Shown: one piece after another, positions 36,601 to 56,955 of the stretch
Layout of the letters: every line of letters begins with the position of its first letter
Position numbering within the stretch: position 1 is the first letter of the stretch
The notes under the pieces: generated by a model
What the model was told of the DNA's origin: nothing
The model's database searches: none
The model's input: only the letters and a program-made list of their open reading frames with translations
From: Priapulus caudatus
Lineage: Eukaryota > Priapulida > Priapulimorpha > Priapulimorphida > Priapulidae
Length of the DNA: 56,957 bases
Reading direction: 5' to 3'
Assembly: GCF_000485595.1 (NCBI RefSeq)
Contig: NW_014577109.1
Span: 379,826-436,782, forward strand
Made by a program: the position numbers and the translations under genes

Positions 36601-39600
36601 CGTACGCACGCACGCACGCACACACGTACGTACGTACGCACGCACGCAAGCACAGCACGCACGCACGCACACACGTACGTATGCACTTACGTACGTACGC
36701 ACGTACGCACGTACGCACGTACGCACGTACGCACGTACGCACGTACGCACGTACGTACGTACGCACGTACGTACGCAGGCACGCTCGCATGCACGAGCAC
36801 GCTTGTCGTGCGAAGGGAAATAACGCGTAAACAGCGGCGCGGTGGCCAGCATCGTCTGCGCTGTTCGCACGATGACGGTCATGCGAAGCCGACGGGCGGC
36901 CATTGTCGCTCAGCGTACAGCGTCAATAGCTGAGAGCTGTTTGCCCGCCGATCGGCGCTAATGTTTTCTCCCGTGTCAGCTCTAATTACGCCGGTGTGTC
37001 CGACCCGATCGATAAGCGTTTTGCGGGCAAGCGCAGCTCCTAGAATCAGCATCGACGGGTGTATTCCTGCTCTGGAGATAATTAGGACGCCTAGCAATCA
37101 AGGTGCTGCTGTGCCGCCAACGAACTGCGCACGCATGGCTTCCTCTGGTGGCTAGCTACAGCTTATCTGGTAGCTAGCTTCAGCTCCATCTGGAGGCTAG
37201 CTGCAACGCCATCTAGTAGCTAACCACAATTCAATCTTGCGGCTAAATACAGCGCCATCTGGCGGCTAGCTACAGCTCCATCTGGTGGCTAGCTTCAGTG
37301 GCATCTGGTAGCTAATACTACTCAATTTGGCGGCTAGCTGCAGCTGCACCTGGCAGCTAGCTTCAATGTCATCTAGTGGCTAACTATAACTCCATCTGGT
37401 GGCTAACTACAATTTCATCTGCAGTTACATCTGATGACTAACTAAAACGCAATCGGGTGGCTAGCTACTCTGAGACAGGCACCCGCTTTATATTATATAA
37501 ATCTCCGCCTCGGTTCATTCGGGAATCATGACACCATCTTATCATGTTGCACGTTCGCCGCCACTTCTTTATGAGGTCATGTTGTAAATGATAGCAATAT
37601 ATGTGATGTCATACGGTCGTCTAGGGGAGGGCTTCAGACAAAGTTAAGCACGTGCACGATTCATAACGGTAGGTCCGCGGGAGTAGAACCATCGGCAGAT
37701 GAGGTCTGCTTGGCGCCAAGTGCACCTTCATTCAGTAGTTCGAACAGGTTCTACTGCCCATTGGCGGGCCGTTCGTAGGTGATCCGGCCTGAAACAGCAG
37801 GTGTCGGATGTTATGCGCGTATTCATCTCTGCGCTAACGTAATATTTTACGTCGCCGTCCGATATATTTTTTTTACATCGGCGGCACAGCTTACAGACTA
37901 CGTGCACGACCCGCCATGTTGTGCTGCTCATTAGGCTCGTTAATATCCATCCATCTGGTACAAACCGCACGCTGCGGACCATGTCACAGTCTCACGGCTC
38001 ACCGCGCTCACAAAATCCATCGACGCATGCTTGATCGCGTGACTTGGGCAGCGATGGCGAGCTGCCGCAACAAAACATCGACTGTTGTGGGAGGAGGCAA
38101 GGGGAAAGCGCGCAAACCGCGTCTCCCCCGAGTAGGTTCTAGGCAATCGATCGCGCGTAGCCTGCCTGTCGGTGCTTCAATATCGCAGAATGCTCCACTG
38201 CGTCGTAGAAGCAACGTGACGAATGCACGTAATATAAACTATTTCGTGAGCAATCGCTAAAGGCACCGATAAATAAAGAATAGCATCCGATCTTCAGATC
38301 ACACATGAAAGACAACTATGTAAATGTTGTATAGTAGGGCTGTTATGGAGCTTTGTGGAATAAGACAATGCGATGCCAAAATTAAAGGTCGCAACAGCAA
38401 TTAACGAAAGCAGCAACTATTAATAGTGCAGTAAAACATGGTAGGTCTTTTGGAGGGAAACATTTAAATTGATGTTTCATTTGTGTAATATGTTAGGTCT
38501 TGTGTTTTGCTACTCTAATACTCCGCAAACTAATCATGGCTTCTGATGTTAATCACATATGCGTATAAATTCGATGGTATTTTATAGGTAATCTTGAACC
38601 GTATGCTTCATGCATTGAGCAAGTGATTAACGATTTTAGAAAGATATGTTCAAAATCATTAAAGATGCAGCCAAATTTATTCCTAAATTAAACCAATTCC
38701 AAGATGCAAAAACACGCATTTAATATACATTTTGAATCGTTTGTTTAGTTTAGACTCGAGTCGACTTTCGCTCGACTTGCATGTCTCTAGCTTTCTCGAT
38801 ATGATCCGATTGGCACATCCATATAAGTTTGATTTAATTCACAAATCCCCGTTCCCATAGTTTTCCTTCACTCGGTGTGCGTGTGTTACGAGAAGCTGTT
38901 CGTTAATCCACTCTAATCGTCTGACGTACGCTTGCTCCTTGTCACGCCCCCACAACGAAGAATTCTTCGCTGCTTTTCCACGCAATAACCTGCACGAATC
39001 GGTCCATGAGCCCACATCGTTAAGCTCAGGTAGGCACAGAGGTTAATTCAGAAGCCTGAGGAGAATTATGAGAATTGTTAAAATATCACTTCAACGACGA
39101 CCGTTGGTGGCCGGATATCAGCAGCCGTCAGCCGCACCAACCTTCCCTGTTGCCGCCATCAAAATCCCAACAACCTATGCATATACGTCATCGTAACATC
39201 GAACTCCGACGAGGGTGGAACGGTTTGCAGACACTAGATATTTTCAAGAGTCCATAATAGAAGACTATGGATCTATTTTATTATCTATTCTATGGATCTA
39301 TTTCTATTATGGACTCTTGATATTTTGTATCGTTGCACCTTCATCCGCGCTATATAGAGACGGAATCGCGGACGTGTGAGACCAGGCATGCAGAAGGAGA
39401 AGCGAAAGACCCCCATCGTGAGCACCTATATCATAGAAACACGCGCATGCACTGCGAGAGCAGCGAGGCGCGAGCCATTTTCGCCGACGGATTACGCGTT
39501 CTAGAGCGAAACAAGGACACGTTGCCATAGCAACGGCAGCGTTCTAGCCCTCGTGATGAAAGCTCGGAGATTGTCCATTCAATCCCCGTCGATGTGTGCA

Positions 39601-56465: not shown

Positions 56466-56955
56466 ACCACACAGACATAGTGAGAGACATAGAGAGAGGG
56501 GAAAGGAGGAGAAGATCGAGCGAGTCTCGAAAGAGCCGGAGATGCAGGGCGGAACGAGAGCGTGTCAGCGAGCGATCATCGACGAGCGAGCGAGCGACGG
56601 CCTAGGACGTCGAGTCAGCAGAGCCAGCAGCCGAGCGGCGAGCAGCTGTATACACATACATGCAGGAGCGTATAAGTGACAATATATTTATATATATAAT
56701 TAAATATATTTAATATATATATTTAGTTAATAAATTTGTCATTATAGCCTGATACATGCTTACATTCTGGCGGGAGGTCATGGCCTTTCCACGAGTGCCC
56801 TTGTCTAGTTTGTATGTGTTTTATAACCCGCGTGACGTCGTTTCTCGTTTAAAGCACTGTTTCCTACCGTTTTTAACTATCTCGACGCTACCGATATCTT
56901 ACTATAACTCTGGCGTAACAGCAAGTTTACATAATATTACGCATGTCATAGAACA
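56466..56955 (-). repeat. Right arm of the foldback structure (cut by window end)
   Basis: It is the inverse of the left arm, including TTTGTATGTGTTTTATAACC, CGCGTGACGTCGTTTCTCGT and ATGTCATAGAACA at the edge. The similarity reaches the window end, so the arm may extend further. It carries the corresponding hairpin insertion. Confidence 0.87.
56663..56751. mobile_element. 89-bp CAGGAG hairpin element in the right arm, 7-bp flanking repeat
   Basis: CAGGAGCGTATAAGTGACAA pairs with the inverse ending TTTGTCATTATAGCCTG, the right tip having lost some bases. ATACATG flanks it (56656-56662 and 56752-56758), the inverse of CATGTAT in the left arm, so both elements occupy the same site of the repeat. 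Confidence 0.88.

Follow-up and report, generated by a model that had tools for sequence, protein, structure and literature searches.

The closest described systems are the P element of Drosophila and Galileo, a member of the P superfamily; the literature is cited here for passages on excision, target duplication and element ends. After excision of the Drosophila P element, 8-bp duplications remain together with at most 17 nt of either element end, and the resulting joins are blunt, made at microhomologies, extended by 1-3 bp or filled with longer templated sequence, polymerase theta being needed for part of them (Chan et al. 2010, PMC2895639). Among characterised cut-and-paste transposons, P is reported to stand out by the long stagger of its cut (PMC7776569; PMC10983969). 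Galileo makes mostly 7-bp and some 8-bp duplications at the target GTANTAC (PMC4168063), and its foldback-like copies consist only of two inverted ends (PMC3573991, PMC4168063). In the present study, short hairpins bounded by direct repeats were analysed in a 56,957-nt stretch of the priapulid Priapulus caudatus (contig NW_014577109.1, positions 379,826 to 436,782), hereafter the window, and in the whole assembly of 385 Mb and 2,952 contigs. A sequence-only reading of the window had described them as a family of six tiny elements with CARGAG...CTCYTG ends and two possible outliers. The hairpins are very probably excision footprints of transposons resembling the P element, and not mini-transposons.

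According to the proposed mechanism, a transposon with ends starting in CARGAG would enter an AT-rich site (approximately ATAWTAT) and duplicate 7 bp, sometimes 8 bp. On excision, the transposase would cut one strand at the edge of the element and the other about 20 bases inside, and each chromosome end would be left with a single-stranded 3' tail formed by the outer tip of the terminal inverted repeat. We infer the internal cut at about 20 bases from the sharp limit of retention in the one end type for which the full sequence was read. The like tails would be sealed by end joining that is blunt, uses small overlaps, adds 1-3 bases or inserts filler templated by the tails; these types of joins were observed, and the copied filler would be the product of a polymerase-theta-like process. 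Because both tails hold the same repeat, the sealed scar would be a near-palindrome, mostly of 30-60 bp, lying between the two target copies, and the variety of its centre would be the variety of end joining. A P-type system, which the sequence-only reading had brought up, gives the best fit; the transposase would most likely belong to the P superfamily and work in the style of Galileo.

The footprints of the Drosophila P element resemble the hairpins in the target duplication, the retained outer end bases and the blunt, microhomology, small-insertion and templated joins (PMC2895639). They differ in that the fly footprints were obtained in an induced experiment, with an 8-bp duplication and 17-nt tails (PMC2895639), whereas those of P. 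caudatus are natural, have mostly a 7-bp duplication and a limit of 20 in the measured type, and comprise several end types at what are probably thousands of places. Long foldback-like inverted ends, end-only copies and 7/8-bp duplications are common to Galileo and the present elements (PMC4168063, PMC3573991), and the targets GTANTAC and approximately ATAWTAT are both AT-rich and palindromic (PMC4168063). This likeness concerns architecture and duplication and is a resemblance rather than a proof of kinship. The passages on Galileo describe no excision scars (PMC4168063, PMC3573991). The P-derived miniature inverted-repeat transposable elements (MITEs) of Anopheles gambiae are alike in being non-coding, with P-type ends and perfect target duplications, but they form consensus families with a common central region and 8-bp duplications, whereas the hairpins have no common interior (PMC1562414). 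In rice, natural excision scars with filler were found by genome comparison; these derive from plant transposons, comprise 94 putative excisions, and in the passages concerned no palindromes from long end remnants are described (PMC4423477). No report of natural P-type scars at the scale of a genome was found in the literature, as judged by titles and the openings of abstracts.

On recheck, the coordinates, end motifs and flanking repeats were as first described at all eight places. The spans below include the flanking repeats.

39238..39326, unstranded: putative footprint (39245-39319, 75 bp), flanks ATATTTT, arms CAAGAGTCCATAATAGAA (18) and a filler of 39 bp
40284..40359, unstranded: putative footprint (40291-40352, 62 bp), flanks ATAATAT
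40619..40664, unstranded: putative footprint (40626-40657, 32 bp), flanks ATATCAA, arms of about 15 and 16 with 1 base between
45511..45574, unstranded: putative footprint (45519-45566, 48 bp), 8-bp duplication CTGTGAAT
55445..55551, unstranded: hairpin (55452-55544, 93 bp), duplication CATGTAT, ends of about 21 bp and an AT-rich palindromic filler
56656..56758, unstranded: hairpin (56663-56751), duplication ATACATG, right end decayed
29708..29793, unstranded: probable footprint of another end type (CATAGAANTAATATAGA, CATAG; 29716-29785), 8-bp duplication GCTCCAAC
12848..12880, unstranded: doubtful member of 19 bp (12855-12873), flanks ATATTAT, adjoining an AT repeat

All six proposed members are present, but they are not six separate ones, since 55452 and 56663 represent one event and the right end of the latter has decayed. 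The outlier at 29716 was retained as a probable footprint with other ends and an 8-bp repeat, whereas 12855 is a weak candidate for the family, with the AT repeat alongside. The right arm of 40626 corresponds to an end type counted at 228 places (CAGGAGTCTATCAA), and its left arm differs by 1 base. The right arm of 45519 is identical to the first 19 bases of two full elements, L045 and L046, described below.

The window hairpins were confirmed to be real, beyond chance. A scan for exact 7-bp flanks and ends matching in at least 9 of 10 positions gave 6 matches, of which 4 (39245, 40291, 40626 and 55452) lie outside simple sequence and were kept for the counts. With 7- or 8-bp flanks and a different complexity filter, 10 matches were obtained in the window, whereas 200 order-2 Markov shuffles averaged 0.28, with at most 6 in any one; the 10 comprised four of the hairpin family, 29716, the element at 51722 and four places where the sequence is simple or AT-rich. 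Matches with CARGAG-like ends numbered 4 in the window and 0 in all 200 of the order-2 Markov shuffles.

Across the assembly, the pattern CARGAGN{10,40}CTCYTG was found at 6,064 places, compared with 879 for the reversed control, and the stricter pattern CARGAGYNNATAAN{4,34}TTATNNRCTCYTG at 2,778 places, compared with 0. That the hairpins are chance palindromes of AT-rich DNA could be argued from the 879 places at which the pattern with a free interior matches even when reversed; the 2,778 versus 0 places of the strict pattern, the Markov shuffles and the exact flank repeats refute this explanation, the probability of which is vanishingly small. The scars probably number in the thousands across the genome.

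The flanks were determined for 40 hairpins chosen by their arms alone in the window and in 200 kb of contig C1, the C1 stretches having been selected because matches of the CARGAG pattern were listed there. An exact 7-bp repeat was detected at 24 of them, an exact 8-bp repeat at 1, and a repeat with one mismatch in seven at 5; L008 and L009, apparently one duplicated site, are both counted among the 25 exact. When the frame was shifted by -3, -2, -1, 1, 2 and 3, exact flanks were found in 0, 0, 1, 0, 0 and 0 cases, respectively. The consensus of the duplication over the 25 sites was approximately ATAWTAT (A 18, T 23, A 17, A or T 22, T 14, A 23, T 18). At L017 4444-4529, one hairpin scar is nested in another, each with its own 7-bp duplication, which corresponds to serial events at one place.

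For one event (55452/56663), sites without the hairpin are also known. Positions 55246-55772 and 56438-56955 form an inverted duplicate of 85% identity with the same hairpin in both arms, so the two hairpins go back to one insertion event, the inverted duplication having copied the hairpin together with its flanks. The dispersed repeat around them recurs in the window near 3605-3700 and, in reversed orientation, near 22190-22310; these copies contain the following sites.

3655..3661, plus strand: empty site in a paralogous repeat copy, single CATGTAT, without the hairpin
22279..22285, minus strand: second empty site in a paralogous repeat copy, single CATGTAT (ATACATG on the plus strand), without the hairpin

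The filled copies have two CATGTAT with the hairpin between them and the empty copies have one; the single CATGTAT therefore indicates an insertion there, with a 7-bp duplication. The 7-bp duplications claimed earlier are genuine by both the flank matches and the empty sites of this event.

The hairpins had been regarded as the inserted elements themselves; this was not supported, as one end type also has full elements with the same ends. In the assembly, this end, CAGGAGTAGATAATAGGG, is present 629 + 594 times, with 0 in the reversed control. The first 100 places listed resolved into 18 short pairs, 37-90 bp in length, 11 pairs measuring 398-1,405 bp and 42 places with no partner; 7 of the 11 longer pairs span 737-811 bp. 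The 1,405-bp pair on C8 is probably not an element, as one of its ends lies in a short listed hairpin, and several unpaired ends are asymmetrical hairpins which are present in the hairpin listing. Two full elements were read.

L045, 775 bp: full element, 7-bp duplication ATATAAT, inverted ends identical over 282 bp
L046, 793 bp: full element, duplication GTATATAT, inverted ends identical over 57 bp

Over about 330 bp, the inverted ends of L045 are alike in 325 of 332 aligned positions and those of L046 in 291 of 333. No reading frame longer than 93 amino acids was present in either element. Compared in the same direction, the two are similar in two pieces, by 84% and 90%. In a search of the assembly with L045, 40 of the 834 candidate places were scored, 37 of which span 752-822 bp, with identities of 80-100%; copies with 99-100% identity suggest recent activity or recent duplication. 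The 775-bp family does have a common interior among its copies. MITEs are defined by an interior common to the copies of a master, and the interiors of the hairpins differ within one end type.

The patterns used to determine the retained arms demanded 14 intact bases in each arm and a total of no more than 58 bases, and the sample covers scars within these bounds. With 14 or more intact bases in each arm and 0-30 bases separating the arms, hairpins of the CAGGAGTAGATAATAGGG type were found at 366 places, with 0 in the reversed control; the first 50 were examined, reverse-strand duplicates of palindromic places being left out of the counts for this and the three other end types, and 40 of these 50 junctions were distinct. 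The 38 listed junctions assigned to the GGG type were measured against L045 and L046. Their 76 arms retained 15 bases in 5 cases, 16 in 5, 17 in 6, 18 in 10, 19 in 20, 20 in 29 and 21 in 1, so that 75 of 76 keep 20 bases or fewer and the stop at 20 is sharp. The stop is not set by the length of the repeat, because the full end continues for hundreds of bases (about 330 bp). In the sister type ATAGAAGA, read to base 20, 12 of 14 arms from 7 junctions reached base 20. Beyond the retained arms, the joins were blunt, had a small insertion or contained filler copied from the arms.

This distribution bears on internally deleted elements, which would arise when gap repair is interrupted and the copying of the template stops early. 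Such an origin would suit some of the short pairs (52-90 bp), the hairpin 55452 and the C28:981171 arm of about 31 bases, all of which keep more or longer sequence. A broad spread of retained lengths would be expected from it, in contrast to the 75 of 76 arms ending by base 20, and we consider it highly unlikely.

For the other end types, CAAGAGCTAATAATACCT/CTAATAATACCT and GACAAATT, the reference end was inferred from the footprints themselves rather than read from a full end. The CAAGAGCTAATAATACCT end (the CTAATAATACCT type) was found at 236 places, with 42 distinct joins among the 50 listed, and all 18 bases of the inferred reference are present in 55 of 100 arms; the next base in these 55 arms is A in 27, T in 14, C in 12 and G in 2. 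In 20 fillers of at least 7 bases of the CAAGAGCTAATAATACCT type, the summed longest match to the arms was 145, compared with a shuffle mean of 90 (maximum 103 of 500). The end type CAGGAGTCTATCAA was counted at 228 places, and one recurrent 30-mer of this type has a self-complementary centre, AATATT. The GACAAATT type occurs at 39 places, letters being available for 24; its arm lengths are ambiguous because the central AAATTT is self-complementary.

Copying from the arms was also seen in the window. The filler of 45519 has an 11-nt copy of the right arm, that of 29716 a 14-nt copy of the left arm, and inside the filler of 40291 lies an 11-nt arm copy with a snap-back look (...AATAATAGATCTATTATT...). 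The match between filler and arms, with arm lengths set by the analyst, was compared with 2,000 shuffled fillers and was reached by 0 of 2,000 for 45519, 0 of 2,000 for 29716 and 3 of 2,000 for 40291; the test was thus passed by three of the four window fillers longer than one base, 39245 being the one that failed. The earlier statement that the interiors are unrelated stands insofar as they vary within one end type, but the tips of most window members have approximately CARGAGYNNATAA in common and some of the fillers reproduce the ends. Interiors filled by repair without a master copy agree with the junction data, whereas filling at insertion is unsupported: in the measured type, the tips of about 20 bases point to filling on exit, in the repair after excision.

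The same data bear on very small mobile elements, either MITEs made of terminal inverted repeats only or foldback elements, which would insert as hairpins with 7-bp duplications. The duplications, the empty sites of one event and the exact recurrences (a 40-mer at 4 of 50 listed places and a 30-mer, by eye, at 18 of 50) look like insertion. Against this, the joins vary within one end type (40 of 50 and 42 of 50 distinct), retention ends at a fixed base within much longer full ends, and fillers are built from pieces of the arms; the recurrent sequences would be blunt or self-complementary joins favoured by repair. Mobile hairpins are accordingly judged distinctly unlikely, and mini-transposons copied from a master were rejected as the principal explanation since the joins differ inside one end type.

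A 17-nt staggered cut and dependence on GTP characterise P-superfamily transposons. At least 64 matches to the RNase H domain of P transposases were detected in the assembly. The locus L027 contains, at 7-2487 on the minus strand, the best-preserved of the frames, an open one of 827 amino acids of the P/THAP9 type, 67% identical to its best relative, with helix-turn-helix, RNase H, GTP-binding and THAP9 C-terminal domains; it aligned with the solved P transposase 6p5a over residues 89-588 (2.8e-23). The end-pair search of the 20 best P loci yielded a single pair, in L035, of 531 bp with unlike CATCA ends; comparison of P copies by similarity also revealed no autonomous element with CARGAG ends. 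The autonomous element with the same ends that the sequence-only reading had sought was not found among the loci searched; the full elements L045 and L046 are non-coding. A match of L036 to the window at 3205-3596 was rejected as an element trace; this region is another dispersed repeat, with 81% identity to the flank of the P-transposase locus L036, ending GAGCACTG.

Because no P frame was tied to the CARGAG ends in the DNA searched and the search covered P-type transposases only, we infer P membership rather than demonstrate it. The footprints could instead come from a non-P transposase whose internal cut likewise lies about 20 bases from the element edge; Dada and KDZ are families that we take to be candidates. 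Besides the missing link between P frames and CARGAG ends, the limit of about 20, not 17, speaks for such an enzyme. Among the characterised cut-and-paste transposons, the long stagger is reported to be peculiar to P (PMC7776569), the 7-bp, occasionally 8-bp, duplication and the AT-rich palindromic target fit Galileo (PMC4168063), and P transposases are encoded in the genome, in a search limited to that type. A non-P origin is considered unlikely.

Several observations weigh against excision footprints of P-like transposons. No site was observed both occupied and as a footprint in the assembly data examined, and 10 of the 40 arm-selected hairpins from the window and C1 were without a flank match. 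The stop at base 20, measured in one type against the full element, differs from the 17 of Drosophila. One of the 5 junctions of the AGAGA sub-type (C28:981171) keeps, by eye, about 31 bases of one end, 24 of 48 arms of the GACAAATT type match at least 22 bases of the inferred end, and the CTAATAATACCT-type end could be slightly longer than 18, as A follows in 27 of 55 arms. One 40-mer recurs at 4 of the 50 listed CAGGAGTAGATAATAGGG-type places. The recurrent 30-mer of the CAGGAGTCTATCAA type is ambiguous: it is expected if tails pair at a built-in microhomology, and a mobile hairpin would show the same. The filler of 39245 is not templated beyond chance, 1,631 of 2,000 shuffles reaching the observed match. 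A simple footprint would be shorter and less palindromic than the hairpin 55452, which may have arisen by snap-back or represent a very small derivative formed by deletion. A pair of CARGAG ends within 1.5 kb was found in none of the 20 best P loci (about 3.4 kb each), and no long element with such ends was found in the window, the 200 kb of C1 or these loci.

Other features of the window were recorded alongside. At 51722-51955 and 52192-52385 lies a CACTGGCAGTTCC...GGAACTGCCAGTG element with an exact 8-bp duplication TATTTATG, the second copy being partial, in a 112-bp tandem setting; we take the element at 51722-51955 to be hAT-like. A reverse transcriptase domain extends across two reading frames at 17684-18582 and is probably a fragment of a long interspersed nuclear element (LINE). 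Tandem arrays with units of 81 bp and 40 bp were located at 13826-14153 and 15364-15898, respectively, the latter reaching the N run from 15900.

In flies, the excision of P elements serves as a well-established assay for break repair in the laboratory (PMC2895639). The genome of P. caudatus seems to hold a natural repeat of this assay, performed thousands of times, with several end sequences and in another lineage. The frequencies of overlap use, of bridging without homology and of templated filler would be readable from one genome, together with the bias that comes from the tail sequence. As a tentative extension, held with somewhat less than even confidence, a Galileo-like branch of P would cut about 20 bases inside its ends, at a length perhaps dependent on the family, and its scars may outnumber intact elements, leaving a natural record of break repair that includes templated synthesis; among the first 100 listed places of the CAGGAGTAGATAATAGGG type, 18 short pairs stand beside 11 long ones. 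This matters for the annotation of repeats, in which a short, near-perfect palindrome bounded by a target duplication can be a scar and not an element. The scars may point to a P-like transposase with a stagger longer than the known 17.

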